DNA from: Sphingomonas sp. SORGH_AS_0950
Lineage (GTDB): Bacteria > Pseudomonadota > Alphaproteobacteria > Sphingomonadales > Sphingomonadaceae
Length of the DNA: 64,000 nucleotides
Assembly: GCF_030818415.1 (NCBI RefSeq)
Contig: NZ_JAUTAE010000001.1
Coordinates: forward strand, 3,870,001-3,934,000
Reading direction: 5' to 3'
The notes below the pieces were generated by a model. The model was not told where the DNA came from. It saw only the letters and a program-made list of their open reading frames with translations, and made no database searches. The position numbers and the translations under genes are program-made. Positions within the stretch are counted from its first letter, which is position 1. Each line of letters opens with the position of its first letter. This document shows, one piece after another, positions 23,868-48,089 of the stretch.

Positions 23868-23916
23868 CTTTCCCAAGCTTTTGAAGAGGCTGGGTATTTC
23901 GCGGAAATCGCTGCTT

Positions 23917-24018: not shown

Positions 24019-24020
24019 GT

Positions 24021-24290: not shown

Positions 24291-24355
24291 CGATGTCGGT
24301 GCTTCGCAAATCCTGTCGAAGCGCATCTGGCGGGGCCAAGCGGTGTTTCAGTTAC

Positions 24356-27444: not shown

Positions 27445-27601
27445 AAGCCTATGCTTAGGGGATAGCCCCAAGCCTCCTTCTTAGGCTTGAATCCGTCCGG
27501 TCGAAATGGGGGCCAGCTCAGTCGATCTGTTCCAACCACAGGAATGCGCCAACTACTTCACCTCCTGTGGTTATGATCCAGACTGATCAGAATCCGCTCT
27601 A

Positions 27602-28464: not shown

Positions 28465-29657
28465 TAGTGATGAGGGCGATTGTTGGGCTGAATTCGCCCA
28501 GTCCTGGGGCGATCGAGATCCGCAATTGCGGATGCGGCAAGCAGGAAAGCGCCGACTCCGTAATATTGCGTATCGGATGGTAAGACCTTGTCTGGACGGT
28601 CGCTGACCTGCTGCACCCAACCCAGCCGTCCGTCGGGCTGGATCGCCCGGGTGAGCGCGTTCCAGCCGCGAATGGCCGCCGGGCGATAGGTTGCTCGGTC
28701 CAGCAGTCCAGACCGGATGCCCCAGGCAAAACCATAGGTGAAGAAGCCGGTCCCGCTCGTCTCGGGCGGCGCGTTTTCCGGCGCGAGCAGCGACGGGCTC
28801 CAATAGCCGTCGGCCCTTTGTAACGTCAGAAGCTTGGCCGCCATTTCACGGAACAGCGCTTCCATATGCTTGCGGTCTGGGCTCCCGACTGGAAGGTATG
28901 GAATGATCCGCGCCATGCCGCCAAAGACCCAGCCATTCCCTCGTGCCCAGAACTGCTTGCGATCCCGGTCGTCGCGTCGTTCGAAGAAGCGACTGTCGCG
29001 GTAGTAAAGATGCTCGACCGGATCGAACAGAAAGTCGGTCGTTGCCCAGAATTCCTTCATGGCAAAGGCGCGATATTTGATATTGCCCGTCTGGTTCGTC
29101 ATTTCCACGAAAGCGGGTGGGGCCATGAACAGGGCATCGCACCAGCACCAGCGATCAAGGCATTCGGTCGCGCCATAGCCACCGTTCTTTGGAACGGCAA
29201 AGGCCAGGGTGGTGACCGCCGGCTTGTCTATGACGCGATCAAAAACGATGCGGGTCGGCGCGCGTGCAGCAGCACCCGCGCCGCGTCGGGCCGCCCATAG
29301 ATAGGCCTGAGCGATCGTATGATCATCGGCGAAATACGGGCGGTGGCCCGGAGTCCACTGATTGCGCTCACCCATCTCAAAAAGGGCCTGCTTCATGCGT
29401 AGCGGGGCGCCGGGCATATCAGCGAGCGCCGTCATGCCGACCCAGAAAACGGCCTGTTCCCAAGCACGGGGATTGCGGGTTTCGCCGGTTGCCTTTTCGA
29501 TGTGGCGGGGGGCCAGCCGGGCGAGTTGCCAGTCTGCAAGGCGTACCGCCGTATCGCGAACCACAACCGGATCGATCGTGTCCGCCGAAGCCGCCGCGAG
29601 TGGGGCGGCCATGGCGCAAGTCAGCGCGGCCAAGGGGTAGAAGCGGAAACGGCTCAA
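28464..29657 (-). CDS. GH105-type unsaturated rhamnogalacturonyl/glucuronyl hydrolase
   Basis: 397 residues with a signal peptide (about 1-26, ending LAAASADT), so periplasmic. The alpha/alpha-barrel motifs YFADDHTIAQAYLWAA and CLDRWCWCDALFMAPPAFVE (catalytic Asp in WCDALF) match YteR/YesR-type hydrolases. KQFWARGNGWVFGGMARI and GTGFFTYGFAWGIRSGLL also match. It removes the unsaturated galacturonyl group left by lyases on rhamnogalacturonan oligomers (by family). Its stop codon TAG is formed at the IS target site and stayed a stop after both insertions, so the protein is intact. It is last in the minus-strand pectin unit. Confidence 0.88.
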   Translation of the reverse strand: MSRFRFYPLAALTCAMAAPLAAASADTIDPVVVRDTAVRLADWQLARLAPRHIEKATGETRNPRAWEQAVFWVGMTALADMPGAPLRMKQALFEMGERNQWTPGHRPYFADDHTIAQAYLWAARRGAGAAARAPTRIVFDRVIDKPAVTTLAFAVPKNGGYGATECLDRWCWCDALFMAPPAFVEMTNQTGNIKYRAFAMKEFWATTDFLFDPVEHLYYRDSRFFERRDDRDRKQFWARGNGWVFGGMARIIPYLPVGSPDRKHMEALFREMAAKLLTLQRADGYWSPSLLAPENAPPETSGTGFFTYGFAWGIRSGLLDRATYRPAAIRGWNALTRAIQPDGRLGWVQQVSDRPDKVLPSDTQYYGVGAFLLAASAIADLDRPRTGRIQPNNRPHH

Positions 29658-29808
29658 TGATTGTCCCTCCCTGATCGTCGTTGCGCGATGGCGGCTTGGT
29701 CATGGCAGGCCAGTTGGATGTCGCGGGCGATTGCATCCTTGATCCGGATTACGCACGGAATCCGCACAACATGGCAAAATTCATAGGATAACTTTGGGTG
29801 GGCCCACC

Positions 29809-30543
29809 TCAGGGTGTGTTGGCAGGCGGCTGCGCTTCCAGTTCCACATCGCTAAGTTCCGAATGGCGGTTGAGGCTTTCCTGCATATGGTCCCATGCCG
29901 CTTGCCGTGCGCGCGGTACGTCCATCCGCGTTATGGCATCCAATATGGCCTCATGCTCGGCGCGCACCTTTGCGACATAGGCCTGATGCGCGTCGTCCGG
30001 CTGATCGCGCAGATAGAGGTTGCGGGGCGGAACGAGCCGAAGGCCGAGAAAGTCGATAAGGCGAACGAAATAGTCGTTGCGGGTCGCACGCGCGATGGCG
30101 AGGTGGAACTGGACATCGGCGGCGGCTGCGGCGATCGGATCATCGCTAACCTGTGCCATGTGACGCAAGGCGATCCGCATAGCGGCAATATCTTCGGTCG
30201 ATCGACGCGCCGCCGCGAAAGCGGCCATCTCGGTCTCGATCGCCAATCGGGTTTCCAAGAGCCGGATGACATCGGCCAATTCCGATAGTTCGTTACGGGT
30301 CACCTGGAATGCGCGGTAGCGGGCGTCCTCGGCAACATAGACGCCAGACCCTTGCCGGGCCACGACCAGTCCCTGGGCTTCCAGTCGCGCAACGGCTTCG
30401 CGGACGACCGTTCGGCTGACCTCCTCGGATTCCGCAATCGCCTTTTGCGTGGGCATCTGCTCGCCGGGCTGCAAAGCACCGGAGAGAATGCTGGCTTCCA
30501 GCTTTGCAAATAGCTCGTCTGCCATAGAAGCGGCCTTGGCCAT
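29809..30543 (-). CDS. GntR-family (FadR/FCD subfamily) transcriptional regulator
   Basis: 244 residues. The N-terminal winged helix (about 8-75) has ILSGALQPGEQMPTQKAIAE and SRTVVREAVARLEAQGLV. The FCD ligand domain (about 95-230) includes LLETRLAIETEMAAFAA, FHLAIARATRNDYFVRLI and EHEAILDAITRMD, with metal-binding His in FHLAIA and EHEAI. Such regulators usually sense uronates or their ketodeoxy derivatives. It lies inside the uronate locus with a TTGT-N3-type palindrome just upstream, so it probably controls itself and the locus (inference). Confidence 0.92.
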   Translation of the reverse strand: MAKAASMADELFAKLEASILSGALQPGEQMPTQKAIAESEEVSRTVVREAVARLEAQGLVVARQGSGVYVAEDARYRAFQVTRNELSELADVIRLLETRLAIETEMAAFAAARRSTEDIAAMRIALRHMAQVSDDPIAAAAADVQFHLAIARATRNDYFVRLIDFLGLRLVPPRNLYLRDQPDDAHQAYVAKVRAEHEAILDAITRMDVPRARQAAWDHMQESLNRHSELSDVELEAQPPANTP

Positions 30544-30566
30544 CGAAGATTCCTGCTAAGCCGTGT

Positions 30567-30578
30567 TTGTCATATCAA
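30567..30578. promoter_or_regulatory. Candidate GntR operator (site a) upstream of gntR
   Basis: TTGTCATATCAA, an imperfect form of TTGT-N3-ACAA, lies 24 bp upstream of the gntR start and in the 83-bp gap after the DUF2264 gene. Similar sites lie at 33047, 36409 and 36753. Confidence 0.4.
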
Positions 30579-30626
30579 TATGCCGTTGCGTCCCATTGGT
30601 CCAGTCATGTGGGGCGGTGGCCGCTC

Positions 30627-31904
30627 TCAATAACCAACCGGATAGTCCTTGCGGAAATCCTCGCCGGAATAGGCGCGTCGCATGGTCCACGGCATAGCGG
30701 GCGACGCCCAATAGGTATCGGTTGCTGGCAATCCCAGGGCAATCAATCCTTCGGACGCGATATACATGCTCCCGGCGTTGGAATACCAGTCGCCCAATGT
30801 CGGCTGGGCGCGGGTGAAGCCGATGGTCATGAAGCCCTGCGCATTGAAATTCGAGGGGTCGGCAAAGATGCGCCGTGCCGCTGCCACCGTCGCCGCTCGC
30901 ACTTGCGGCGCGGGCAGCGCTTCGGGCAACCAATGGCGCCATGCCAGCACGCCCAGAACCTGATGCGCCGCGATGCGGTAAGTCAGCGAACGGCCGATCG
31001 CGGCATAGGCACCGTCCGGTCCGATCATGCGTTCGAGATGCTCCCCGAACCGCTTCATGCGCTTCAGGGCGCGGTCGAATTCGACTTGGGGTCGCAAGCT
31101 GTTGAACGAAGTCTTGTGCGTCGCCAGAGTTTCCAGGACCTGGACCATCATCGGATGGATCACATAGCTGTTGTAATAGTCATAATGGAAACTGTCGCCG
31201 TCCTTATACCAGCCGTCGCCTGCATACCAATCGCCTGCAAACAGCTTGACCGTCATGTCGACGCGCATGGGGTCCCAGTCCTCGCCGATCGACAAAAGGA
31301 AGATTTCGTTCATCGCGGCAAAGAGCAGCCAATTCTGATAGGGCGGCGAGATACGGCGAAGCCCCTTGATGGCCGAGACGATGCGCTGTTTGGTCTTGGC
31401 ATCCAGCGGGTCCCAGAGACTTTTCGGCGCTCGTAGGAGCGCGCTGGTGAAGTAGGCGCTGTCGACCAGGGCTTGACCATGGCCTTCCCAGCCCAGTCGG
31501 TCCGGGCTGGCGGGGTCGACCGAATGGACATAGCTTTGCACCGCCTGTTCGCGCAAAATATGCCGCAACCGACTTTCGGCATCCTCGCCGTCAGGCAGTG
31601 CGAGCCAGGGCGCGATGCCATCGATCAGGCGCGCAAAGCCTTCCATATAGGATACTTTGGGATCGCGCTTGTCCCAGGTCGGGCTGAGTTCGGGTTTCCA
31701 TTCGCTTTGCAGGCGCCCCGCCGACATGCGCGACAGGATCGGCGACGCCATCTTTTCTAACAGTCCTAGCATGAAGGCGCGGTCGGATACGCCGCTTGGC
31801 AGGAGCGCGGGCTTTGCCCCCTTTTCTCGCGACAATCCGGCCGATGGCAGCGATGCCGCCGCGCCGCCGCCCAAGACGGCACTCATGAACTCGCGTCGCT
31901 GCAT
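30627..31904 (-). CDS. DUF2264 family protein, exported
   Basis: 425 residues from ATG 31904; the open extension upstream falls in the preceding gene. An RR-containing, Tat-like signal MQRREFMSAVLGGGAAASLP precedes the mature protein. The all-helical DUF2264 fold is suggested by WDPLDAKTKQRIVSAIKGLR, YQNWLLFAAMNEIFLLSIG and GWYKDGDSFHYDYYNSYVI. The family occurs in pectin and rhamnogalacturonan loci, where a role as an oligosaccharide-processing glycosidase is suspected but not certain. It sits 14 bp after the DUF4861 gene, so they are cotranscribed. Confidence 0.85.
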   Translation of the reverse strand: MQRREFMSAVLGGGAAASLPSAGLSREKGAKPALLPSGVSDRAFMLGLLEKMASPILSRMSAGRLQSEWKPELSPTWDKRDPKVSYMEGFARLIDGIAPWLALPDGEDAESRLRHILREQAVQSYVHSVDPASPDRLGWEGHGQALVDSAYFTSALLRAPKSLWDPLDAKTKQRIVSAIKGLRRISPPYQNWLLFAAMNEIFLLSIGEDWDPMRVDMTVKLFAGDWYAGDGWYKDGDSFHYDYYNSYVIHPMMVQVLETLATHKTSFNSLRPQVEFDRALKRMKRFGEHLERMIGPDGAYAAIGRSLTYRIAAHQVLGVLAWRHWLPEALPAPQVRAATVAAARRIFADPSNFNAQGFMTIGFTRAQPTLGDWYSNAGSMYIASEGLIALGLPATDTYWASPAMPWTMRRAYSGEDFRKDYPVGY

Positions 31905-31918
31905 GGATTTCCCCTTCG

Positions 31919-32869
31919 TCAACGGGCGGGAGGTGTGAAATCGAGATGTTCGCCTTCGGCATAACGGTGCCATTGGTCATGCGTGGAGAAGGCCCCCGCG
32001 CCGCGATCCCAGGCAGAGCCGGAATAATAAACAAAGGGGTGGCCGGGCGAGACGCGTACGAGAAACAGATGGTTGTCGAAGTCGCTACGCTGGTCGACGA
32101 TCATCGCCGGATCGACCCGCAAGGCGATGGCCATCCGGCCATGCACCTGATCGCTGGGCCCCCACCAGGTCATGACGCCGTGGGGGCGATCGATCACGAC
32201 GTGGCCATCGGACGCGCCTGTGGTCCTCTTGCCGATCCCGATGCCAACGATCAACGCCTCGGGCCGGTTCGAGGACAGGGTGGATACCATGCGAGTGAAA
32301 TGCGTGCCGAGCGGCAGGGTGAACCGGCGGGTTTCCCAGACCCGGCGGTCAACTCCGACCGGCCAGGGCGCATACTCGACCACGAAGTCGGCCACATTGC
32401 CGCCGCTCTTCAGAATATGGTGGCGGACGAAGTTGCGTGACGTCCACAGCTTATTGTCCAGCCACACGCCGAGCCCGCCAGCCCCCCGTCCGGTGCCGAC
32501 ATTGTAGAAGTCGACGCCTTCGCCGTGATAGCTATGCTGGTCGCCGGTGCGAAGTTGCCGGTCGGCAAAAGGCCAGGGATATTGCTTGCCCCAGCTATCG
32601 ATCCCGGACCCTGATGGCGGTTCCACCGCTTCCAGAGCATGCCCATATATGCGGTGCGCCGTACGGTCGTTTTCCCACAACAGATCATCGTGCCGATAAT
32701 CGGCCAGCACGGCGACAGAGGCGGCCCGTCGATCGGGGGGAGGGGGTAGCGGCTTGTCAATCGGCATGACCGGCCCCGCCTGTTGCCCGTATGCCACCCC
32801 CGTTGCCGCCAGGGTCAGCAGAAGGGCTGGCATTGCCAGGCCCCGGCCTCGGTTCGGCCGCCCCTTCAT
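31919..32869 (-). CDS. DUF4861 family exported protein
   Basis: 316 residues from ATG 32869, chosen because it directly precedes a signal peptide ending ATGVAYGQQ. The DUF4861 signature is visible in DDLLWENDRTAHRIYGHALE, YHGEGVDFYNVGTGRGAGGL and GVMTWWGPSDQVHGRMAIAL. Members occur in polyuronate/rhamnogalacturonan loci, probably as periplasmic carbohydrate-active proteins; the reaction is unknown. It opens the minus-strand unit DUF4861-DUF2264-gntR-GH105 and is divergent from the transporter operon. Confidence 0.82.
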   Translation of the reverse strand: MKGRPNRGRGLAMPALLLTLAATGVAYGQQAGPVMPIDKPLPPPPDRRAASVAVLADYRHDDLLWENDRTAHRIYGHALEAVEPPSGSGIDSWGKQYPWPFADRQLRTGDQHSYHGEGVDFYNVGTGRGAGGLGVWLDNKLWTSRNFVRHHILKSGGNVADFVVEYAPWPVGVDRRVWETRRFTLPLGTHFTRMVSTLSSNRPEALIVGIGIGKRTTGASDGHVVIDRPHGVMTWWGPSDQVHGRMAIALRVDPAMIVDQRSDFDNHLFLVRVSPGHPFVYYSGSAWDRGAGAFSTHDQWHRYAEGEHLDFTPPAR

Positions 32870-33486
32870 CAGGCGAACCCTGTGCGTCGTGCCCGCTCTC
32901 ATCGGACTATCCGCCACATTCTGCTTCAAGATGGGGCATGCTGACCGCGTATCATCAGTTCTTCCCACAATGTATCGCAGCACAAGCCCGGATCAAAACC
33001 GCAGCCTCATGCCGTAGCATGAGCAATTATCTCTTTTACTGCAATCTTATATGACAAACAGGATGCAGCGCTGCGGAGGGTTGTGCAAGAAAAAATCGTA
33101 TAAATTAATATTATCGAGTAAATACAATAATTTAATGGGGTGTGGCGTGCTCGATCAGGTGTTCGCTGGACTTGCATTTGACGGGCGGTATGATTTGTAT
33201 GATAGATTGTTAGGTGCAATTACTGAATCTCGGGGGGGTATTTGCCATGGCGTTAAAACCGCGTTGCCTCGTCGGCGGCGAAGGTGATCGCTGCATCAAC
33301 CAGCGCAGGGATGGGCTTCTGTCTCCCAAAGGCGGTGCCTTGTTCATGGCGTTCGGCGAGCGTGGCTTCTCCGAATGGCTTTGCCCCCACCTTCTTCTCG
33401 ATGGCGAAATTTGACGTCTCCACTCTGCGATATCTGTCCTTCGGGGCAGATATCGCTTTTTTGCACCAAAAGCTGAGGAGCATTGG
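32870..33486. promoter_or_regulatory. Divergent promoter region of the pectin locus with operator site b
   Basis: 617 bp, markedly AT-rich between about 33020 and 33215, between two divergent units. TTATATGACAA at 33047-33057 is an imperfect TTGT-N3-ACAA palindrome. A weaker half-site TTGTATGATAG lies at 33195. A short frame at 33214-33414 is open but shows no coding character that I can defend. The MFS transporter start at 33487 ends the region. Confidence 0.5.
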
Positions 33487-34785
33487 GTGACGGACGGCGA
33501 TATTATTGCGGGGGCAGCGCGGCGCTCCGGGCGATATCGGTGGAAAGTCTGCGCCCTTCTATTTGCCGCCACCGCCATCAACTACATTGATCGTCAGATG
33601 ATCGGGGTTCTGAAGCCCGCCATCCAGGCTGATCTGGGTTGGAGCGAGCGGCAATATGCCGACATCGTATTCTGGTTCCAGGCCGCTTATGCGGTCGGCT
33701 TTCTCCTGATGGGCCGATTGATCGACCGAGCGGGGGCCCGATTTGGCTATGCCATCGCGTTCGGCATATGGACGCTTGCCCATATGGCCCATGGCCTTGT
33801 GCATTCCGTCACACAGTTCGTCGTGGTGCGGTTCGCCCTCGGGCTGGGCGAAGCCGGAAATTTCCCGTCGGGGTTGAAGGCTGTGGCCGACTGGTTTCCA
33901 CAGCGCGAGCGCGCCCTTGCCGTCGGCCTGTTCAACGCGGGGGCCAATGTGGGTGCCATCGTCACGCCGCTTGTCGTTCCCGCCATCGCGCTATCCTATG
34001 GTTGGCGTGCCGCGTTTGTCGTGACAGGTGCCTTCAGCGTGATCTGGTTAGGGGCCTGGCTCCTTATCTACAGGCGGCCCGAGGAGCATTCGCGAATAGA
34101 CGAATCCGAACTCGCCCTGATCCGAAGCGATCCGCAACTCGTATCCGAAAGAATATCTTGGTCTAGACTGTTTCTGGTACGTGAAACCTGGGCATATGCC
34201 GTACCGAAATTCATGACCGATCCCGTCTGGTGGATGTTTCTATTCTGGTTGCCGGACTTTCTCGGCAAGCGATATGGTCTCGATCTGAAGGGTTTCGGGC
34301 TACCGTTGGTAGTCATCTACGTGATTTCGGACGCTGGCAGCGTGATCGGCGGCTGGATTTCGTCCCGTTGGATTCGGTCGGGATGGTCCCCCAATGCGGC
34401 ACGCAAGACGACCATGTCGATCTGTGGCCTGGCGGTCTTGCCGATCATCACGGTTCAGTATGTGGACGGGCTTTGGCTTGCGGTGTCGCTTATCGGCCTT
34501 GCGGCTGCGGCGCACCAGGCTTTCTCCGCCAATCTGTTGACCTTGCCCTCCGACCTTTTCCCGCGCCAGGCGGTCGCATCGGTGGTCGGCATCGGCGGTA
34601 CGGCAGGTGCGATCGGCGGTATGCTGATCGCCAAATTCGTGGGTTACGTGCTTGAGGCCACCGGAAGCTATGCGCTGATCTTTACCGTGGCGGGAACGGC
34701 CTATCTGGCCGCCCTGACGGCCTTACACCTGCTCAGCCCCAGATTGCAGCCGGCAAAGCTCAGCATGCCCGCGCAACCTTCTTGA
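33487..34785 (+). CDS. MFS transporter, ExuT-like hexuronate family
   Basis: 432 residues from GTG 33487 (GAGGAG at 33476-33481), about 12 membrane segments. The anion:cation symporter family pattern is clear: [20 protein letters not shown] in helix 1, [20 protein letters not shown] and [19 protein letters not shown]. This family carries galacturonate, glucuronate and related sugar acids with protons. It starts the operon transporter-kduI-kduD, overlapping or closely spaced, so the substrate is probably an unsaturated or keto-deoxy uronate. Confidence 0.9.
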
Positions 34786-34799
34786 TCAAGGACTCCATC

Positions 34800-35636
34800 G
34801 TGTACGAAAAGACATATTACGCCACACATCCGCAGATGATGGACGGGGCATCCAATGGTGATCTTCGTGATCGATACCTCGTGTCCAATCTGTTCCGGCC
34901 GGGTGAACTTGTCCTGACCTATTCGCACGGCGAGCGGTTTGTGATCGGCGGTGCAGTGCCGGGCGACGCAATTCTGACGCTGCCGTCGCATAGCGAACCG
35001 CCCAGTGCTGCGGGTCAGGCCTTTCTGACGAGTCGCGAACTGGGTGTCGTCAATATCGGCAAAGGGCGCGGCATCGTCACGGTAGAAGGCGAGGCGATCA
35101 CGCTGGACAGGTATGAAGCTCTTTACGTGCCGATGGGATCGCAAGTCGTCACTTTCGAGGGAGCGGGCGCGCGCTTCTACCTGCTGAGCGTACCCGCTCA
35201 GGTAGCCTATCCTCTTTGCAAGGTAACATTGGACGAGGCCAACCCGATGGAGCGGGGCAGCCTGGAAGGCTCAAACGCTCGAACCATCTACCAGCTGATC
35301 CTTCCCCATTTGTGCAAGAGTGCCTCCCTTTGCCTTGGCCTTACCAAATTGAAGCCGGGCAGCGTGTGGAACACTATGCCGCCGCACGTTCACGAGCGCC
35401 GTAGCGAAATCTATCTCTATTTTGACATGGATGACAATGACCGAGTGTTCCATTTCATGGGCCAGCCCGATCATTTGCGCCATCTGGTCATGGAGAATGA
35501 ACAGGCGGTCATTTCGCCGCCCTGGTCGGTCCATATGGGGGCGGGGACGAGCAACTATACGTTCATTTGGGCAATGGCGGGGGAAAATATGGATTATGCC
35601 GATATGCAGGTGTGTGACATCTGCCAGTTGGTGTGA
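34800..35636 (+). CDS. kduI: 5-keto-4-deoxyuronate isomerase KduI
   Basis: 278 residues from GTG 34800, the usual KduI length; AAGGA at 34788-34792 fits this start better than the TTG at 34782 that overlaps the transporter stop. Cupin-fold zinc enzyme converting 5-keto-4-deoxyuronate to 3-deoxy-D-glycero-2,5-hexodiulosonate. Zinc ligands lie in [16 protein letters not shown] (two His and Glu) and [12 protein letters not shown] (His). It is followed by kduD, the next step, with a 4-base overlap. Confidence 0.95.
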
Positions 35637-36391
35637 CGGATCGGATGTTCGACCTTACGGGTCGCGTTGCGATCGTCACGGGTGCCAATACGGGCATTGG
35701 TCAGGCGATCGCCATTGCCTTAGCGGCGGCAGGTGCAGATATCGCGGCGGTCGGGCGAACGCCTGCCGAAGACACTGCCGAGCGTATCCACGCAATGGGG
35801 CGAAAGGTGGGACTGATCGCTGCCGACCTGTCGAGGGCGTCTCCGGCGGGTCGTATCGTGGCGGAAACCGTCGAGCGACTGGGCGGGCTCGACATTCTGG
35901 TCAACAATGCGGGGATCATCCGTCGGGCGGATGCGGTGGACTTCACCGAGGCCGACTGGGATGCGGTGATGGATACCAATTTGAAGTCCGCGTTCTTCCT
36001 GTCCCAGGCCGCCGCCCGTACGATGCTTCCCAAGGGCCGGGGTAAGATCATCAACATCGCCTCTATGCTGACCTTTCAAGGCGGCATCCGGGTGGCGAGC
36101 TATACCGCCGCAAAGAGCGGTATCGGCGGTTTGACCAAGCTGCTGGCCAATGAGTGGGCGTCCAGCGGCATTAACGTCAACGCGATTGCACCGGGGTATA
36201 TTGCAACGAACAACACCAGGGCCCTGCGAGACGATGCGACGCGCCACCAATTGATCCTCGACCGTATTCCGGCCCATCGTTGGGGAGAGCCCGAGGATTT
36301 GGGAGGGGCTGCCGTTTTTCTGGCGTCCTCTGCGGCCGACTATGTCCATGGCCATATTCTGGCAGTCGATGGCGGCTGGCTGGCACGCTGA
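35633..36391 (+). CDS. kduD: 2-deoxy-D-gluconate/2-keto-3-deoxygluconate-forming dehydrogenase KduD
   Basis: 252 residues from GTG 35633, overlapping the kduI stop; ATG 35645 ([13 protein letters not shown]) is an equally possible start. Short-chain dehydrogenase with the NAD-binding [24 protein letters not shown], catalytic Ser in [13 protein letters not shown] and YTAAKSG (Tyr-x3-Lys). It reduces the KduI product to 2-keto-3-deoxygluconate. The kinase and aldolase that finish the pathway (KdgK, KdgA) are not in the window. Confidence 0.94.
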
Positions 36392-36408
36392 GTCGCTGAA
36401 GTTTGAAA

Positions 36409-36419
36409 TTGTATGACAA
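36409..36419. promoter_or_regulatory. Candidate GntR operator (site c), after kduD
   Basis: TTGTATGACAA is a perfect TTGT-N3-ACAA palindrome 18 bp after the kduD stop, at the start of the region upstream of the ferritin-like genes. Confidence 0.45.
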
Positions 36420-36752
36420 GCCTGAGGATGCCGTGCGCATTCCCTTCGCCGGACATCCGACTTCGATCGATCGCTCAGATAAATGTCACGTCGAAGGCCG
36501 GGTAAAATCCTGTGTCTAAACAATAAAATTTCCGGTTTTGAATTTTGACCAAACGGTTCTGGCTATCTTAACCATATTCGCCTGCCGATAGGAGGCCATC
36601 GCGCATTGGCCTGACTAGGCGTCGCGTCGTTCTGGGGCGCGCAATCCCATAATCTGAGCGATCCAATAAATCCTGAAAATATAGGATCATAAGTTTTGCA
36701 GCGAAACTCCGTCGCGCTGCAACGACAGGATGACACATTCTTTCTCCCATTT

Positions 36753-36763
36753 TTGTAATACAA
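36753..36763. promoter_or_regulatory. Candidate GntR operator (site d), upstream of the ferritin-like gene pair
   Basis: TTGTAATACAA is a perfect TTGT-N3-ACAA palindrome 58 bp before the start of the first ferritin-like gene, next to the possible -35 box at 36766. A partial copy (CGTATACAA) follows at 36785. Confidence 0.5.
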
Positions 36764-36820
36764 CATTGCCAGAGACGCCGGTTTCGTATACAAAGATCGC
36801 AAGCAACGGGAGGAGGGAAT

Positions 36821-37762
36821 ATGGAATCCCTTAGGGAGCCCTGCGACTATACGGGTCGCAGGGAAGTGATACGTGCGGCTTTCGCATCAGCGGTCCTCGC
36901 CGGTGCGGTGATGACGGCGACACCCGCCAAGGCGCAAACCGCTGGCGATATCGACGCGCTTAATCTCGTCTTAAACATGGAATATCTCCTGGCTCAGTTC
37001 GAGAGCGCGGCGGTGGCGGCAGCCGTGCCGGCTGATCGTCTGACCGGGAACGGGATCGCCGGTGTCGCGGTACGTGGCGGAGCGGCGGTTTCCTTCTCCG
37101 ACACCGTCTTGCGCTCAATGGTTCAGGAGATGGCGAACGACAATCGCAATCATCTGCTGCCGATCCGCAACGTCATCGGAGCGCTATCGGTCCGCCAGCC
37201 GCTGATCGATATCTCCGTTTCCCCAACCGCTCCGTTTTCGATGTTGATGCAGCAGGCCGGGGTTGTGGGCGCGGGGGTGACCTTCAATCCTTATGCATCG
37301 GAAGAAAACTTCCTGTATGCGATGTTCTTCCTGAAGAATGTCAGCGTCGCAACCTATCGCGGTCTGGCGTCGACGATCAGCAACCGCGTGGTGGTGCAGA
37401 ATTTCACCGGCCTGCTGGGAGCCGAAGCGATCCACCTCGCCACGATCCGCAGCTACCTCTACGCCCGCGGCGCAACCAATCAGCGGTTGCGCGACAATGC
37501 CGACAAGATCGCTGCGTACCAGAACAGCCTGAATGGCGGCGGCGTCTTCCAGGGTGTGTCGCCGCGCACCCGAACGACTGCTGTGTCGGCTTCGCCCATC
37601 ACGGTGGCCAATATCGCACCCGCGCAATCTGACGGCGCGGTAAGCGGCCGCTCGGCGGGGCAGATGCTCAATCAATTCTATCTTAGCAGCGCCGCGACCG
37701 CGTCCGGTGGTTTCTTTCCCGAGGGGGTCAACGGCACGATCCGTACCAGCGCCAGCGCCTGA
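36821..37762 (+). CDS. Exported ferritin-like domain protein 1
   Basis: 313 residues with a Tat- or Sec-type signal (about 1-39, GRREVIRAAFASAVLAGAVM and an AKAQ cleavage site). The four-helix ferritin-like (Ferritin_2-type) pattern is visible: LNLVLNMEYLLAQFESAA, EMANDNRNHLLPIRNVIGAL, SEENFLYAMFFLKNVSVATY and LLGAEAIHLATIRSYLY. Family members usually have Glu-Asp in helix 3, but here it is Lys-Asn, so the metal site looks incomplete. The C-terminus ends in SGGFFPEGVNG, shared with the next protein. No function is known to me. It is first in a unit with a second ferritin-like gene and a TBDT. Confidence 0.8.
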   Translation: MESLREPCDYTGRREVIRAAFASAVLAGAVMTATPAKAQTAGDIDALNLVLNMEYLLAQFESAAVAAAVPADRLTGNGIAGVAVRGGAAVSFSDTVLRSMVQEMANDNRNHLLPIRNVIGALSVRQPLIDISVSPTAPFSMLMQQAGVVGAGVTFNPYASEENFLYAMFFLKNVSVATYRGLASTISNRVVVQNFTGLLGAEAIHLATIRSYLYARGATNQRLRDNADKIAAYQNSLNGGGVFQGVSPRTRTTAVSASPITVANIAPAQSDGAVSGRSAGQMLNQFYLSSAATASGGFFPEGVNGTIRTSASA

Positions 37763-37792
37763 CCCGCTGCCTTCGTCTTGGAGGATACCCAT

Positions 37793-38857
37793 ATGAGAAA
37801 CTCCGTCATTACAGACGCCGCCCACGCGTCGTCCTTTGCCGATGCGCCTGGGGGGCAAGCGCCGAATAGCGATCGCCGGCGCTTCCTGCGCCGTGCAGCG
37901 GTCGGTGCCGCGCTCGGGCAGGTCATGATTTTGGCAGGCTGCGGTGAGGGCGATCAGTCTCCGCTCGCCAAAACGAACCCGACACCGACGGCCACATCAA
38001 CCCCGACGATCCTGCCCGTGACCGACACGGACATGCTCGTCCTGATGCTCCAACTCCATTATCTCCAGGCTGAGTTTTACAGCCGAGCGATTTTGGGGGC
38101 GCCGCTGCCCGCAAGTCTGACGAGCGGTTCCGGGATTGCAGGCGACGTAACGGGCCCCCGTGCGGTAACAATCGCGGACCCCATTCTGGCTGACATCTTG
38201 CGCGAGATTGCGGCGGAAAAGATCGACCAAGTCGTTCGTCTGCGCGCCGTGCTCGGTTCTTCGGCACCCGCCCGCCCCGCCATCAATCTGGCCACCGGCA
38301 CGGACGGCGTATTCGGGCGATACAATGCGCTGGCCTCGGCGCCGACTTCCACCGTCAATTCGACGGCAAGCACGGCGGTGATCGGCGACGTCTACGCCAA
38401 TCAAGAGCAATTTTTGCTGGGCGCCTTCCTGATCGAGGACGCGGTCATGGCGGGATGGCGCGGTGTGGCCACCCTGATGGTCAGTGCCAGCAATATCGAT
38501 GTCGCGGCGGGCCTGTTGGGAACCAGCGCGGCCCATGCCGGGCTCATCCGCTCGCAATTGTTCGCGCGGGGGGGCGTTTCGGGCAGCCAGTTGCGCCAGT
38601 CGACGATCCGGTTGAGCGACATTCGCGACACCTTCGCCCCGGTCGACGACGATCGCGGGGTCGCCGCCGGTACCACCGGATCGGGCTTGGCCACGGCGGA
38701 TATCAATCCGGCGGACGGTGATGGCGAAATCTATGGTCGCCTGCCCAACCTGACGATCAACACCTTCTACATGACTCAGGCAACGACGACCTCTGGAGGC
38801 TTCTTCCCGGCGGGGCTGAATGGCGTGTTGAAGCAAAGCAGCGCCAACAGCGGCTGA
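37793..38857 (+). CDS. Exported ferritin-like domain lipoprotein 2
   Basis: 354 residues from ATG 37793 with GGAGG at 37780-37784. A twin-arginine signal RRRFLRRAAVGAALG leads to the lipobox LAGC (Cys near 50), so it is probably a lipoprotein. The ferritin-like helices read MLQLHYLQAEFYSRAILGAP, ILREIAAEKIDQVVRLRAVL, QEQFLLGAFLIEDAVMAGWR and LLGTSAAHAGLIRSQLF. Helix 3 keeps Glu-Asp, but helix 2 lacks the usual His and helix 4 has Ser for Glu. So its metal site is incomplete in different positions from protein 1. The end SGGFFPAGLNG matches protein 1. Function unknown. Confidence 0.8.
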   Translation: MRNSVITDAAHASSFADAPGGQAPNSDRRRFLRRAAVGAALGQVMILAGCGEGDQSPLAKTNPTPTATSTPTILPVTDTDMLVLMLQLHYLQAEFYSRAILGAPLPASLTSGSGIAGDVTGPRAVTIADPILADILREIAAEKIDQVVRLRAVLGSSAPARPAINLATGTDGVFGRYNALASAPTSTVNSTASTAVIGDVYANQEQFLLGAFLIEDAVMAGWRGVATLMVSASNIDVAAGLLGTSAAHAGLIRSQLFARGGVSGSQLRQSTIRLSDIRDTFAPVDDDRGVAAGTTGSGLATADINPADGDGEIYGRLPNLTINTFYMTQATTTSGGFFPAGLNGVLKQSSANSG

Positions 38858-38937
38858 CGCAACCGGGGGGTGCCGTCGTCCGCGCGACCAGAGCGTCGCC
38901 GCAGACCGGACAAGAAGGTCAATGGGGGAACAGGGAT

Positions 38938-41817
38938 ATGAGCCACACAGCTTTGCTCGTTCGAGCGTCGACGATGGCATTGATCGTCGCCGGGTGCGCG
39001 GCCGCCGGACCGGCTTTCGCGCAGGATTTGCCGCAGTTTGTGACAATGCCGCCGCGCCTGACTGCGCTCACCACGCTCGCGATGGTTCCGGGCCTGCCGC
39101 CGGAAGATGTCGAACAGGGCGGATCAAAAAAGGCCAGCAACAAGGCCGGTAACGACAAGCCCTTGCCCCCGCAGTCGGACAATGACGCGCTGCGGGACGA
39201 AAAGGACAAGGACGTCGTCGTCACCGGTGTTCGCAGCAGCTTGGCTCAGGCGCGCGACAAAAAGAAAAAGGCCGACACGATCGTCGACATCGTCGAGGCC
39301 GACGACATCGGCAAGCTGCCGAACAACACCGTCGGCGACGTGATCGCCTCTATCCCGGGCATCAATGTTTTCCGGCGCGAAGGCGAGGTCGACAATATTC
39401 AGCTGCGCGGTCTGGGCGGCGTGCAAACTACGATCGGCGGCACCCCGATCGAAAGCGGTGCGGCACGCGTCGCCTCGATCGCCGATCTGCCTTCCGACCT
39501 CGTCAAGTCGGTTGAGGTATACAAGACGCGAACGCCCGATCAGGTGGACGGTGCAGGCGCGGGCACGATCAACATCCAGTTCCGCCAGCCGACCGACTTC
39601 AACTACGGCTTCACCTTCAGCGGCAACGTTGCGGCGCGCTACAACAATCAGGCGCGTCAGTATAACCAGACCTATACCGGCATCGTGAACTATCGCTTCG
39701 AAACCGGGATCGGCGATCTGGGTGCGCAATTGGGTTTCACCTGGAACAAGAACCCGTTCCTGGAATCCCAGGCACGTAATGATCCGCTTGGACAGGTTCA
39801 GACGCGCCAGGTCGTCGGCCCGCAAATCCTGCCGCTGCCGACCTATGCGCCCAATCAGGTCTTCTTCCAGTACACGACCGGCGCACGCGCGACGCCCAGC
39901 TATAGCGCTTCGGTCCAGTGGACCAATGACAAGACCAGCATCGTGCTCGAAGGCAATTATGCGACGCCCAAATTCGATCGGCATACCAACCAGCTGTACA
40001 TGCCGATCACGATCCAGGCGACGTCCACCAACGCCTTGCCCGCGCTAAGTAATATCACGCTGGTTCCGGGTACCAATCGCATCGCATCGGTCACCGTGTC
40101 GCCCGTCAATCAGGTGGGGCCGATCTCCTACCTGAACCAGGAGAACAGCGACAATTACCTGCTCAAACTGTCCGGACGGCATAGCGAGGATCGGTTCGAC
40201 GCGACCACCGAGATTGCCGTCACCGGCAGCCACTTTGACCGATCGCAGCTGGAAACGCGCAATCGTTTCGTCAATCGGCCCGTCTATGACGTCGAATTCG
40301 CATCGGACAAGTTCCGCTTTCCGATGATGAACCTTCAGTTCCGCAATCTCGACTTGCTGGACCCCAATCAATATCGCTTCTTCGGCGTATTCGAAGACCG
40401 GCTGAGGGGCCAGAATAGCAGCATCTTTACCCGTGCCGACCTGACGTTGCGGACATTTGGCAATTTCATTGATCGGTTCCAGGTGGGTATGCGATTCACG
40501 CAGACGCAGCGGTCGCGCGACTATGGGAGCCGGAACGCCACCGCCCTGCAGATTCCGCTATCGGATCTGCCTGCGGGCTGGGGCAAACTGGTGCCGATCG
40601 CCGAGGGGTTCGGAGGAACCGGCGTCGTCAACAATGCGCGGTGGCTCAGCTATGATCGTTCCGCAGCGCGCGACGACTATGCCGCTCTGCGGCAGTTCCT
40701 CACGCCATTTTTCCCGGCCTTCGCGACGGATGAGCTTCCGGAAGACCGTTCGCAGTTCTTCCGGGCCACCGAACGCAGCGTCGCGGCCTATGCGACCGCA
40801 TATTACAACACCAAGCTGATCTTCCCGATCAGCGGTTTGATCGGCGCGCGCATCACCAACTGGACCAGCTCCGCCTTGTCCTACAGTTCGCGGACCGTGC
40901 GCCGCGTGGTGAACGGCGTCACAACGGATACCTTGCTTGTCGAGCCTCTATCCGGTCGGGGCAATTATGTTTCGGTCGAGCCGACGGTCACGGCGATCAT
41001 CAAGTTTTCCGACAAGTTTCAGACCCGGTTGTCTTATAATGTCGGTGTTCGCCGTCCGGACGTGAGCCTTGTGACCCCCTTTGTATCCTTTAGCGACGTC
41101 AACGGTTTCGGGTCCGCAGGCAACCCCAATCTGCGACCGGAGCGGACGACGCGCTACGACGCGATCTTCGAATATTATTTCGGGCGGGTCGGCCTCATCA
41201 CGATCAATCCCTATTACTGGAAATTGAACGGCAGCATCACGAACTTCCAGACCGAGGAATTGCTCGAGAATGGGCAGGACGGGCGCCTTTATACCGTCAG
41301 CCGTCCGTATAATGCTGGCTCGGGATATCGGCGCGGCGTCGAGGCGCAGGCGCAGACCTTCTTCACTTTCCTGCCGGGCATTTTGAAGAATTTCGGCGCG
41401 AGTGCCAATTTCACTTATACCGAATCCGAACAGACCTATAACAGCCTGCCCGGCGCAAAATCATCCCCGCCGGTGAAGGCGCCAATCTTTGGTGTCGCCA
41501 AATATGTCTATAACGTTGCCGGGCTATTCGAACGAGGGTTGCTGAACGCGCGGGTAAGCTTCAATTATAATGGGACGCAACTCGATCAGCAATTTTCGCC
41601 GATAGAAAATTCGAGCTACATCATTCCACGAGAATGGATGGACGCGGCGATCAACTATACGATTCCCAACGGGCCGCTGAAGAACCTCGGGTTCTCGCTT
41701 CAGGTCCAGAACGTCCTGGCGAGCGCCCGGCGCAGCTTCTACGGCTATCCCGATCAGCCGCGCGACGTCATCTTCATGGCGCGGACCTATGGTGGCGTGA
41801 TCCGCTACCGTTTCTAG
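38938..41817 (+). CDS. TonB-dependent receptor paired with ferritin-like proteins
   Basis: 959 residues. The signal peptide ends AAAGPAFAQ. An unusual Lys/Asp-rich segment (about 60-105) precedes the plug, with DVVVTGVRSSLAQARDKKKK, VEADDIGKLPNNTVGDVIAS and IPGINVFRREGEVDNIQLRG. The long barrel ends TYGGVIRYRF with a terminal Phe. The style is that of the large Caulobacter/Xanthomonas carbohydrate-type TBDTs. It follows the two ferritin-like genes by 80 bp on the same strand. Position beside the uronate locus suggests an oligouronide ligand, but metal or heme uptake is possible. Confidence 0.9.
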   Translation: MSHTALLVRASTMALIVAGCAAAGPAFAQDLPQFVTMPPRLTALTTLAMVPGLPPEDVEQGGSKKASNKAGNDKPLPPQSDNDALRDEKDKDVVVTGVRSSLAQARDKKKKADTIVDIVEADDIGKLPNNTVGDVIASIPGINVFRREGEVDNIQLRGLGGVQTTIGGTPIESGAARVASIADLPSDLVKSVEVYKTRTPDQVDGAGAGTINIQFRQPTDFNYGFTFSGNVAARYNNQARQYNQTYTGIVNYRFETGIGDLGAQLGFTWNKNPFLESQARNDPLGQVQTRQVVGPQILPLPTYAPNQVFFQYTTGARATPSYSASVQWTNDKTSIVLEGNYATPKFDRHTNQLYMPITIQATSTNALPALSNITLVPGTNRIASVTVSPVNQVGPISYLNQENSDNYLLKLSGRHSEDRFDATTEIAVTGSHFDRSQLETRNRFVNRPVYDVEFASDKFRFPMMNLQFRNLDLLDPNQYRFFGVFEDRLRGQNSSIFTRADLTLRTFGNFIDRFQVGMRFTQTQRSRDYGSRNATALQIPLSDLPAGWGKLVPIAEGFGGTGVVNNARWLSYDRSAARDDYAALRQFLTPFFPAFATDELPEDRSQFFRATERSVAAYATAYYNTKLIFPISGLIGARITNWTSSALSYSSRTVRRVVNGVTTDTLLVEPLSGRGNYVSVEPTVTAIIKFSDKFQTRLSYNVGVRRPDVSLVTPFVSFSDVNGFGSAGNPNLRPERTTRYDAIFEYYFGRVGLITINPYYWKLNGSITNFQTEELLENGQDGRLYTVSRPYNAGSGYRRGVEAQAQTFFTFLPGILKNFGASANFTYTESEQTYNSLPGAKSSPPVKAPIFGVAKYVYNVAGLFERGLLNARVSFNYNGTQLDQQFSPIENSSYIIPREWMDAAINYTIPNGPLKNLGFSLQVQNVLASARRSFYGYPDQPRDVIFMARTYGGVIRYRF

Positions 41818-44709: not shown

Positions 44710-47604
44710 TCAGAACCGGAAATTCGCGCCGAAGCGGAACGTCCGCCCCACCGCGCCGATCTGCGTATAGGTCGGATTATAGTTGGTCGCGGCATAGTTG
44801 CCCGCGTTCAACGGCGCCTTCTCGTCGGTCAGGTTGATGACGTCCATATAGAAGGTGAACTTGTCGTTGACCCGCACGCTGCCGACCAGGTCGACGTCGA
44901 TGAAGCGGCGGACATGGCAGTTGAAGTTGGGGTCGGAACCGCCATAGGTGCTGCCGCCGTTGCAATCCATCGTGCCGAACTGGTCGAACCCGACCGCCTT
45001 GTAGCCCGACACGTAATAGGTGGTCGCGGTCAGCGAGTAGGGGCCGTAGTCGACGCTGTTCTGCCAGTTGCCGCGCCATTGCGGCGTGCCCGCACCCGAC
45101 GAAGTCACATAGGGCGACTGGGTGCCGACAAAGTCGGTATAGGGTTGGTCCGCGCTCGGCTTGAACAGATAATGCAGAATGTAGGTCGCCTCGGCGCGGC
45201 TGGTGAAGCGCAGATCATCGCGATGCAACTGCACCTGCGCCGACACGTCGATGCCCGAGGTCTTGAGCGCCGCCGCATTGGCGAAGGGCGCATTGACGAA
45301 CAGCGCGCGCGTCGGGGCGTTGGGGAAAGCGGGGTCGATGACGTCGGGCGTCACCGAATAGCCCGCGGGCATCGTGCCATTGCCGTAAAAGGCCGCCAGC
45401 GCCTGGTTGGACAGCGGACCGCCGGTGATCACGTCGGTCTTCTTGATGTTGTAATAGTCCGCGGTGAAGCTCAGCCAGGGCGTCGGCTGGACGACGGCCC
45501 CCGCCGTGAAGCTCTGCGACAATTCGGGCTTGATGTTGGGATTGCCGACCGTGTTGAACCCGATCGAATAGCTCTGGTTATAGGCGCTGCCGCCGGTGCA
45601 GCCGGTGGCCGTCGCGGTCGCGCCATGCTGGAGCTGGATCGAGCAGGGGGCCTTGGTCGAGGTGAAGCCGATGACCGTGCCCGCGCTTTCGGCGAAACTC
45701 GGCGCGCGGAAGCCCTTGGAGAAGGTGCCGCGCAGGGCCAGTTGCTTGAACGGCGTGAACTTGATCCCGACCTTGGGCGAGAAGCGGTTATAGCCTTCCT
45801 CATAATGGTCGTAGCGGCCCGATCCGTCGATCTCCAGGCTGGTGAGGATCGGCGCGTTGATCTCGAAATAGCCCGACTCCACGGTGCGATGGCCGATCGC
45901 CGAGAACTGGTTGAGGCCCAGCGTGGTCAGGTTCGGATTCTGGTTGGGATCGTTCTGCGCCTCGTAGCGGAAGGATCCGCCGACGCCGACCTGCAACGGG
46001 CCGCCGGGGAGTTGCACGACCTCCTTGGTGATCACGCCCTGGATCATGTCCAGGTCGGTCGTCGCCTGGGTATGGACCGCCGGGGACAGGGCGTTGCGGA
46101 CCGCAGCGCTGTTCTGCGTCGGGTCGACGAAGTTATAGGTGCCGTTGTTGATCGCGTTGGTCAGCGCGGCCAGGTTCAGATAGCCGTTCTGGGTGATGTC
46201 GAGCCAGCTATGCGCGATCGTGCCCGACACCGAATAGGTCCAGCCGTCGCCGAACGCGCCGTCGATCCCGGCGGCGGCGCGCAGCACATGGTTCTTATAG
46301 TCGGACGAGGCGGGGATGTCGCCGAACAGATAGCGGATCGCGGCGGGCTGGCCCGACGCCGCATAGGGATTGTTCGGGTTCAACTGCCCATTGGCCAGCA
46401 CCGCGGGCAAGACGATGTTCTGGGTGTTGATCGGGTTGATCGAGCGGATATTGGCCGGGCCGCCCGCCGCCAGAACCTCGTTCTGGTAATAAGAGGCCAT
46501 CAGATAGGCCTGGGTCTGCGCGTTGACCTGCACCGTCGCATGGCCGGTCACGCCGAACCGGGTCTGTTCGGGGGCGATCTGGCCGTAATCGGCGACGGTG
46601 TTCTGGGTGCAGCCATTGCCCAGCGCGCCGCTGACCGGCGAGGTGGTGCCGGTGCAGCCATTGGGGTTCAGGACCTGGAAGGGGCCGTTGGCCACGCCCG
46701 AACCCGACAGGATGTTGCCGGGCGTCAGCTGCGTCGTCGGGGCGACCAGCGCGCTGGTCGTCGAACCGGGCACGACCGAGCCGGCCTGGTTGTTGTCGCC
46801 GCCAATGCGGGTCAGATCGGCGGTGTTGAACGGAAAGCCGCGATTGCGCGACCAGATCGGGTCGTCATGCTGATATTCGCCGCTGATATAGACGTTGAAG
46901 CCCTGCTCCTTCAGCTTGCCGGTGCCCAGCGTCAGGGTCGCGCGCTGCTCGCCGCCATCGCCGCGCTGGGTCACGCCGCCTTCCAGCGTGCCGGCGACGC
47001 CGGTGATTTCCTTCTTCATGATGATGTTGACCACGCCGCCGATCGCGTCGGCGCCATAGCTGGACGAGGCGCCGTCCTTCAGCACCTCGACCCGGTCGAC
47101 GATCGCGTCGGGAATGGTGTTCAGGTCGACGAAGGAGCGCTGGCCGTCATCCGACAGCGGATAATTGGCGGTGCGCATCCCGTCGATGAGGGTCAGCGTC
47201 GAGTTGACGGTCAGGCCGCGCAGCGACACCGCCGAAGAACCTGCGCCGAAGCCATTGGCAAAGGCGGTCGGGATCGACCCGCTGCTGTCGGCCGAGATCG
47301 AACGGATCGCGTCCGAGACGTTGTTGATCCCGGCCTTCTTCAGATTGTCGGCCGACAGGATGGTGACCGGCGAGGGGGTTTCGGTATTGGTACGACGGAA
47401 CAGCGTGCCGGTGACGACGATGTCCTTGCCATTGGTGTCGGACGGGGCAGCGGCGGGGGCGGTGCTGGCGGACGGCGCGCCCTGAGCCGGGGTGGCGTTA
47501 TCCTGAGCCAACGCCGGGCTGGCCACCAGAAGGCTGCCGATCAGCACGGCGGGCGCGGCGGTTCCCCGCAACAGGGTTGCGCGGATGACGGATACGCTGG
47601 TCAT
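44710..47604 (-). CDS. TonB-dependent outer-membrane receptor
   Basis: 964 residues from ATG 47604; an in-frame ATG 15 bases upstream is less likely. The signal ends SLLVASPALAQ. The plug domain carries DIVVTGTLFRRTNTETPSPV and VEVLKDGASSSYGADAIGGV. The barrel ends AVGRTFRFGANFRF with terminal Phe. This plug style (SSYGADAIGGVVNI) is common in sphingomonad receptors of unknown ligand. It stands alone upstream of the ZIP gene. Confidence 0.93.
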   Translation of the reverse strand: MTSVSVIRATLLRGTAAPAVLIGSLLVASPALAQDNATPAQGAPSASTAPAAAPSDTNGKDIVVTGTLFRRTNTETPSPVTILSADNLKKAGINNVSDAIRSISADSSGSIPTAFANGFGAGSSAVSLRGLTVNSTLTLIDGMRTANYPLSDDGQRSFVDLNTIPDAIVDRVEVLKDGASSSYGADAIGGVVNIIMKKEITGVAGTLEGGVTQRGDGGEQRATLTLGTGKLKEQGFNVYISGEYQHDDPIWSRNRGFPFNTADLTRIGGDNNQAGSVVPGSTTSALVAPTTQLTPGNILSGSGVANGPFQVLNPNGCTGTTSPVSGALGNGCTQNTVADYGQIAPEQTRFGVTGHATVQVNAQTQAYLMASYYQNEVLAAGGPANIRSINPINTQNIVLPAVLANGQLNPNNPYAASGQPAAIRYLFGDIPASSDYKNHVLRAAAGIDGAFGDGWTYSVSGTIAHSWLDITQNGYLNLAALTNAINNGTYNFVDPTQNSAAVRNALSPAVHTQATTDLDMIQGVITKEVVQLPGGPLQVGVGGSFRYEAQNDPNQNPNLTTLGLNQFSAIGHRTVESGYFEINAPILTSLEIDGSGRYDHYEEGYNRFSPKVGIKFTPFKQLALRGTFSKGFRAPSFAESAGTVIGFTSTKAPCSIQLQHGATATATGCTGGSAYNQSYSIGFNTVGNPNIKPELSQSFTAGAVVQPTPWLSFTADYYNIKKTDVITGGPLSNQALAAFYGNGTMPAGYSVTPDVIDPAFPNAPTRALFVNAPFANAAALKTSGIDVSAQVQLHRDDLRFTSRAEATYILHYLFKPSADQPYTDFVGTQSPYVTSSGAGTPQWRGNWQNSVDYGPYSLTATTYYVSGYKAVGFDQFGTMDCNGGSTYGGSDPNFNCHVRRFIDVDLVGSVRVNDKFTFYMDVINLTDEKAPLNAGNYAATNYNPTYTQIGAVGRTFRFGANFRF

Positions 47605-48089
47605 GTCTCGATACTCCACCCTTTTTCCGTGACCTGTGGCCTCGGCAATATTTCGTAGGTGGACCTAGTATTGGTGGCGCGTTCCGGCTGTAAATGACGC
47701 CAATATTTCATGATCCAAAAGTCGCGCGGATGTTGCGCCGCTGACACGGAATGTGAAGTCGACGTTATATTGCGAATACCATTATGGGTTGAGCATATGT
47801 AGGGGAAAATACGACGCCTCCCTCTTGTGGCGCGTCTACGCTGCGGAGGTTAAGAGCGTCATCATGGCGATCGGTTCATAAAACTATTAGATTGGCGATG
47901 CTGGCAAGGCCGCGTTTTCCGTCCGCTTGCCAGGAGGCCCCGGAACGGCCTTCACACAATGATCCACGGACGTGGAAGCGGGCAGGCGTCGCGCTGACCC
48001 GATTGGCGTCATCGGGGCCTCCGGCAAACCCGGCGTGGTTCAGATCCGCCCGGCTGGCCGATGCGGGCGAACTCTTCGCCACCGCCGTT
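47605..48089. other. 485-bp intergenic region upstream of the TBDT
   Basis: No gene is supported. It contains a direct repeat CAATATTTC at 47646-47654 and 47701-47709, 55 bp apart, within 110 bp of the TBDT start, in an AT-rich stretch likely to hold its promoter. The remainder toward the LysR stop shows no recognisable structure. Confidence 0.4.

Follow-up and report, generated by a model that had tools for sequence, protein, structure and literature searches.

A ferritin-like gene pair beside a TonB-dependent receptor

The window analysed here is the whole stretch of 64,000 nucleotides from Sphingomonas sp. SORGH_AS_0950 (contig NZ_JAUTAE010000001.1, positions 3,870,001 to 3,934,000), and our subject is three successive genes on its forward strand. 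Gene A (36821-37762, +) encodes a Ferritin_2 protein of 313 amino acids with a twin-arginine translocation (Tat)-type signal, gene B (37778-38857, +) encodes a Ferritin_2 Tat lipoprotein of 359 amino acids with a Pro/Thr-rich linker, and the third gene (38938-41817, +) encodes a TonB-dependent receptor (TBDT) of 959 amino acids, which belongs to TIGR01782 and to a receptor clade linked to such pairs. The spacing is 15 bp from A to B and 80 bp from B to the receptor; B starts with TTG, with an ATG present 5 codons in. The original prediction had described an adjacent pair of exported ferritin-like proteins followed by a same-strand TBDT behind kduD, and the profile searches bear this out. Against the Pfam family Ferritin_2 (PF13668, cut-off 24.7 bits) A scores 73.5 and B 62.3 bits, and the receptor reaches 394.2 bits against TIGR01782 (TonB-Xanth-Caul subfamily), over the curated cut-off of 310. 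A promoter and terminator scan gives signals no commoner than in shuffled sequences. On the whole, the linkage and common descent reported below show at sequence level that the three genes have been inherited together as one module.

The same genome has six Ferritin_2 genes, arranged as three adjacent pairs, two of which adjoin TBDTs of one clade. Besides the pair of the window, there is one with intact metal ligands (locus L007), located beside thiC and a gene for a histidine-specific methyltransferase, and a third (L008), whose receptor is 35% identical to that of the window and divergent in orientation from its pair, with transposase genes on both sides.

Linkage and common descent of pair and receptor

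A contig scan with A finds one locus, in Sphingomonas sp. Leaf17, where the order is A-B-TBDT and A has 61% identity to that of the window, and a profile of A searched in 298 genomes of the family returns the window's own gene at 586.7 bits and the next best at 251.7 bits; the plasmid records with a match to A number 119, every one below 60% identity. We then turn to the receptors. A first receptor profile, built from the TBDTs of the window, Leaf17 (L029) and L031, gives 19 matches at E<=1e-150 in 18 of the 295 genomes of the genus searched. A Ferritin_2 pair adjoins 17 of the 17 strongest receptors (at least 559 bits, the three query loci and L008 included); L050, a repeat of L029, is counted once, and a short open reading frame (ORF), probably a spurious prediction, separates pair from receptor in L055 and L056. 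The two weakest of the 19 are without an adjoining pair, L065 having an intact pair 2.1 kb away and L064 none. A second profile, built from the 17 paired receptors, gives 21 further matches in 397 genomes of the family; 20 of these were examined (G670 left out; L079 and L084 end at a contig edge), and the stretch around each contains no Ferritin_2 gene (0/20). Next to these outgroup TBDTs (L066-L085) there is often a gene some 500 codons long, perhaps for a protein of the tryptophan-halogenase-like kind, which is a usual partner in loci of this sort. In a class-wide TBDT search of 385 genomes, only the two receptors of the own genome appear at E<=1e-120.

The reverse search leads to the same result. 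Searched with a profile built on the B proteins of 16 modules, the 295 genus genomes give 19 matches at 390 bits or more before a drop to 357, of which 16 are known loci and three are new. One of the new ones, L087, has a contig edge directly beside the pair. In the other two, L086 and L088, receptor and pair are divergent and the receptor is spread over two ORFs; both receptors had been missed by the TBDT searches, which scored two to three candidates per genome and can thus overlook receptors. The receptor therefore adjoins the pair in 18/18 informative loci, two of them outside the profile-making set. As a separate observation, the receptor of L086 (4432-7318 of that locus) and L088 (11234-14088) is split while A and B are open, which may be a sequencing error or a real break.

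The original prediction had taken the pair for a module tied to the receptor, and these counts (17/17 and 18/18) uphold it, while the chance neighbourhood is rejected by 17/17 against 0/20 together with the reverse search. It had also raised the point that homologues might occur mostly without a TBDT neighbour. This is true of Ferritin_2 homologues generally, as among 41 non-module loci a TBDT is directly adjacent in 0, within 1 kb in one (L032) and within 4 kb in four, but the orthologous subset always has one. The 41 loci (L007, two sets of 20 loci less the module L031, and L065) were chosen among the matches listed, from high and low scorers, and are not a random sample. The order A-B-TBDT on one strand is found in four loci, with gaps of -17 to 26 bp between A and B and of 30 to 81 bp between B and the receptor; in 13 of the 17 modules the pair is divergent from the receptor.

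The ordinary pairs have neighbours of their own. ThiC is among the three nearest genes per side in 23/41 non-module loci, and none was found in the module stretches. Among the 60 nearest neighbours scanned in non-module loci (L007, L012, L015, L022-L049), 13 are of the MipA family, and some loci carry an ECF-type sigma factor with an RskA-like anti-sigma factor. In L032 (8258-15300), genes for an outer-membrane protein, a FecA-like TBDT and a sigma factor, as well as a FecR-like gene, come after a pair with broken ligands; perhaps this is a second TBDT type having taken up such a pair.

In the maximum-likelihood tree of receptors, the 17 paired ones form one clade apart from 22 unpaired ones (SH-aLRT 100). 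In the tree of A and B, calculated with the ligand columns omitted, the module B proteins form one group (95) and the module A proteins group with the A of L032 (84). Both trees were made by a quick method, with SH-aLRT as the support; the partial B of L061 and one gene of L045 (287 amino acids) were left out of the A/B tree, and the other L045 row, with a long branch, was kept. The A and B trees largely mirror the receptor tree. Over 16 loci (L061 left out of this test) the distances correlate with those of the receptor at r 0.84 for A and 0.92 for B, and over 10 loci thinned to below 60% receptor identity at 0.59 and 0.82, with a permutation p of 1e-4 in each case. The lowest receptor identity within the linked set is 29%. 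The ratio of nonsynonymous to synonymous substitution rates (dN/dS) of A, B and TBDT is 0.06-0.30 in five locus pairs (rough values, several dS being near or above 1), hence the genes are under purifying selection in the pairs tested, and decaying pseudogenes are not supported.

This bears on the possibility that pair and receptor are simply carried along on one mobile stretch and have no joint function. The block at 28464-41817, of which the module is the last part, is poorer in GC and in third-position GC (GC3) than its flanks and is preceded by a tRNA-Leu and several transposase genes, and transposase genes also flank the second module of the genome, as such hitch-hiking would have it. However, the linkage survives both a receptor identity down to 29% and a change of gene orientation, it is seen in both search directions, and the low dN/dS stands against passive carriage as well. 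We hold this explanation to be very improbable.

Export signals, fold and loss of the metal site

A and B are members of PF13668 by profile and fold. A Pfam scan of both proteins finds Ferritin_2 alone, with no SusD-family and no IgG-like domain. The structure models (pLDDT 86.1 for A and 82.2 for B) predict four-helix ferritin-like bundles nearest to the solved structure of PF13668, the tardigrade ferritin-like phosphatase RvFeMP-1, with a margin of 5 Z units. Foldseek alone gives a best E of 5.8e-3, and a sequence search of the PDB with the profile of A gives nothing at E<=0.1, the sole match being RvY_06210 at E of about 0.8.

Read by eye, both proteins have a twin-arginine signal, in A with R13 R14 and an AxA-type site near residue 38, in B with a lipobox at Cys55 (codon 37940-37942, +) before the Pro/Thr-rich linker. 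The Tat signals recur in the module A and B proteins looked at and the lipobox in the B proteins, with the Cys invariant in 16 module B proteins. The original prediction had left the site as surface or periplasm. The Tat signals and the lipobox would be explained at least as well by a pair in the periplasm, with a tether to the outer membrane, as by a surface pair, for which there is no specific support.

One alternative sets the pair on the cell surface. The SusC/SusD systems of Bacteroidetes pair a TBDT with a dedicated lipoprotein in polysaccharide loci. By this account the pair would be a SusD-like capture lipoprotein or a lid over the receptor, with A held via B. The lipoprotein nature of B with its long, flexible linker, the one-to-one linkage with a single TBDT clade as in SusC/SusD, and the sugar context all agree with it; but both partners have Tat signals, A is without an anchor of its own, no surface-export signal was identified in them, and the predicted fold differs from that of SusD. 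We know of no surface route for Tat lipoproteins, and a surface lid appears distinctly unlikely.

Both proteins end in a shared motif, SGGFFPEGVNG in A (37703-37735, +) and SGGFFPAGLNG in B (38792-38824, +). The original prediction was right that the SGGFFPxGxNG tail is common to the two; as a hallmark of the module it is rejected, because GGFFPxGxNG, along with R258, R321 and Y95 (B numbering), is near-invariant in module and ordinary Ferritin_2 proteins alike, so the motif is family-wide.

The metal ligands behave differently from the tail. We compared A and B with the dinuclear site of the FeMP family (equivalents of Glu51, Glu90, His93, Glu132 and Asp162), using a mapping that depends on a weak profile alignment and the ExxH pattern; the helix-1 ligand is taken as the first Glu, as in RvFeMP-1, and counting the second Glu gives the same conclusion. 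At the five positions A has E54, N108, H111, K172 and E202, thus keeping three ligands, with N108 for Glu in helix 2 and K172-N173 in helix 3 where Glu-Asp is expected (codon of K172 at 37334-37336, +). B has H94, K148, Q151, E220 and S250 and keeps only E220, with H94 in helix 1, Q151 for His and K148 in helix 2 (codon 38219-38221, +) and S250 for Glu in helix 4. Neither protein has the dinuclear site, and the residue changes named in the original prediction (Lys-Asn in helix 3 of A; the missing helix-2 His and the helix-4 Ser of B) are all present.

The alignment that it had named as a refuting test, should the ligands prove complete, extends this to the whole module. A complete five-ligand set is present in 0/34 module proteins against 62/87 others (121 proteins; p 2e-14), and an intact member in 0/17 module loci against 34/41 non-module loci (p 2e-9). 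No ligand at all is kept in 21/34 module proteins, and the divergent subclade has a majority of such proteins. In the window's subclade, each partner has Lys at one metal-bridging Glu position, namely at the helix-3 Glu position in 21/21 rows of A and at the helix-2 Glu position in 20/20 rows of B, these rows being relatives drawn from a set of 5.8 billion proteins, window included. Since the tail and other parts are kept and the metal ligands are lost, the fold and the tail have been retained and the metal site let go. A and B as neither classical iron-storage nor diiron proteins, the view of the original prediction, is thereby supported. Tandem double Ferritin_2 pairs occur in L038 (6528-11039), L047 and L048; L038 combines an intact pair with one that lacks some ligands, a possible snapshot of duplication and decay.

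A metal-dependent accessory had also been suggested. For B and for the proteins of the divergent subclade such a role is unlikely judging by their residues, and the suggestion keeps some ground in the A of the window, which with E54, H111 and E202 left may have a mononuclear metal site. On this basis the pair could carry metal, or could still act as a metal-dependent enzyme such as a phosphatase that works on phosphorylated sugars after their import. In favour, window-type A proteins keep E54 (19/21 rows), H111 (19/21), E202 and H205 (both 21/21), and the relatives in the RvFeMP-1 family are phosphatases that accept sugar phosphates, according to PMC11616004. Conversely, the metal-bridging or M2-type Glu positions of A are both gone, to Asn/Ser and Lys, B has one ligand of five, and most module proteins have none. 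A remaining metal enzyme or carrier is quite improbable.

Sugar genes around the modules and the proposed role

The module stands at the end of a block of sugar-related genes in the window. This block comprises a GH88-family hydrolase of the unsaturated uronyl hydrolase type (28464-29657, -; PF07470, 218.9 bits), a GntR/FCD regulator (29809-30543, -), a DUF2264 protein (30627-31973, -), a DUF4861 protein (31919-32983, -), a major facilitator superfamily (MFS) transporter (33487-34785, +; PF07690, the best NCBIfam model, a galactonate transporter, being below its cut-off), kduI for 5-dehydro-4-deoxy-D-glucuronate isomerase (34782-35636, +; NF002091, 364.6 bits, cut-off 250) and kduD for 2-dehydro-3-deoxy-D-gluconate 5-dehydrogenase (35633-36391, +; TIGR01832, 387.6 bits, cut-off 338.85). 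GH88-family enzymes, KduI and KduD act on unsaturated uronides, and because of this an unsaturated uronide oligosaccharide is the most likely cargo of the window's receptor, as far as gene content can tell. The tRNA-Leu and then the transposase genes at 23783-28457, with the GC-poor sugar locus until about 41.9 kb, look island-like, and the transposase gene pair found here, judged by eye, recurs on the flanks of the L008 module. Beyond the module of the window, at a distance of 2.9 kb, comes a second TBDT of a different type (44710-47619, -), with the best named models all below cut-off.

Other modules have sugar genes near or adjoining as well: GH2 and GH43 in L029, GH78 and RhaT in L031, GH43 in L051, an arabinofuranosidase in L052, GH3 in L056, GH88 in L058, and GH84 with a LacI regulator in L061; L051 also shares DUF4861 and DUF2264 with the window, and by eye the regulator too. 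Glycoside hydrolases adjoin 7/17 modules against 1/41 control loci, and are 7/33 of the nearest neighbours of modules against 1/81 control genes (p 7e-4), both control counts being among the matches listed (25 of 27 and 25 of 29 families, with up to six family rows beyond). The single control match is a 3-keto-disaccharide hydrolase. The control genes, 60 scanned and 21 ThiC, were chosen by rule; the module neighbours are mostly the nearest gene per side, in a few loci the next one where the nearest looked spurious, and the GH43 of L051 was hand-picked. An iron or siderophore module is rejected, because the TBDT falls well short of the siderophore and haem models listed by name, and its neighbours include no iron genes. 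It may be set against this rejection that L032, with a pair related to the module pairs, carries the FecA-like TBDT and the sigma and FecR-like genes described above.

We consider as the best explanation, with confidence just short of even, that a metal-free, Tat-exported pair of A and B, in which B is lipid-tethered and A is bound to B, is the partner of a glycan TBDT and takes over or holds the oligosaccharide. It builds on what the sequences themselves demonstrate, namely linkage, common descent, ligand loss, purifying selection, export signals and predicted fold. A and B would derive from the metal-dependent Ferritin_2 pairs common in the genus, in a family that has phosphatase members; the dinuclear metal site would have been lost, and the two proteins would now serve the receptor as partners. 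They would form a heterodimer, held on the periplasmic side of the outer membrane by the lipid of B. The lysine (K172 of A, K148 of B) may replace the metal charge and keep the bundle folded, and the former active-site cleft, or else the surface with the conserved tail motif, may receive the oligosaccharide imported by the receptor. For the window, the cargo would most likely be an oligosaccharide ending in an unsaturated uronic acid, for instance a fragment of pectin or rhamnogalacturonan; the GH88-family enzyme, KduI and KduD would then degrade it.

Several points weigh against this explanation. Module A is a less secure group (84) than module B and takes in the A of L032. At least one ligand is lost in 25/87 non-module proteins too, including the thiC-adjacent L030 and L035; some pairs that lack a TBDT have thus lost ligands as well, so that the loss of metal has no exclusive tie to receptors. 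The module neighbours were partly hand-chosen, and without one such gene the p value becomes 0.002. Finally, the modules of L053, L054, L059 and L060 have no adjoining sugar gene.

Modules of this last kind would suit a pair that serves the assembly, the stability or the gating of the receptor clade and has no contact with the cargo, as would the co-descent with the receptor and the conservation of the tail motif while the active site drifts. Against it, the outgroup TBDTs of the same type do without such a pair (0/20), and two distinct proteins seem costly for one assembly task. We regard such a factor as unlikely, and keep to the glycan-binding partner in the comparison below.

Comparison with known systems

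The nearest fold is that of the ferritin-like metabolite phosphatases, which share the profile family PF13668 (RvFeMP-1 of Ramazzottius, DRB0118 of Deinococcus; PCC13-62, Rds1); the first structure and activity for this family date from 2024 (PMC11616004). Like them, the module proteins are exported and are predicted to be four-helix bundles with a short extra helix. Unlike them, the module proteins have no intact dinuclear site (0/34), pair as A and B with a TBDT, and in A and B have no IgG-like domain by Pfam. Because the metal site is missing, A and B are placed within PF13668 and outside its phosphatases. There is a parallel in the metal-free class Ie ribonucleotide reductase R2, also of the ferritin-like superfamily, in which the metal-binding glutamates are replaced (VPK and QSK variants) and the protein still functions, as PMC11846895 describes; hence ligand loss with function kept does occur in this superfamily. 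R2 is a radical enzyme, however, so the likeness is by analogy only. The module may add another example to the superfamily in which the metal is lost and lysine substituted, and it points to a function for PF13668 members that lack the metal.

As to the locus, the CUT loci of Xanthomonas and Caulobacter combine a TBDT, an inner-membrane transporter, enzymes and a regulator for plant sugars, as outlined in passages of PMC1790865. The same make-up is found within 28464-41817 (TBDT, MFS, GH88, KduI, KduD, GntR), for which carbohydrate transport is predicted. The window adds the exported partner pair, which those passages do not name. Searches of open PMC papers on Ferritin_2 or ferritin-like proteins, with TBDTs or in Sphingomonas, subscription papers and preprints being outside them, list no title that describes this combination. 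The locus is of a known kind, that of TBDT uptake, and has an unexpected partner pair. Sugar TBDTs are abundant in Proteobacteria, and with a receptor clade that has, as far as sampled, a dedicated exported pair, the need for partners becomes testable.

By analogy, the module resembles SusC/SusD of Bacteroidetes in that a TBDT within a polysaccharide locus has its own lipoprotein partner. A survey (PMC1790865) that met no relatives of SusD in Xanthomonas genomes judges SusD to be Bacteroidetes-specific. The module differs from SusC/SusD in that the partners are Ferritin_2 and not SusD proteins, that there are two of them, both with Tat-type signals, and that the TBDT is of TIGR01782. The module may thus work like SusC/SusD without belonging to it. 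Put more broadly, and tentatively, it would be an independently arisen proteobacterial counterpart of SusC/SusD, in which a ferritin-like pair that has lost its metal is the obligate heterodimeric glycan-binding partner of one TBDT clade, with one branch carrying a lysine-for-metal swap at complementary positions.

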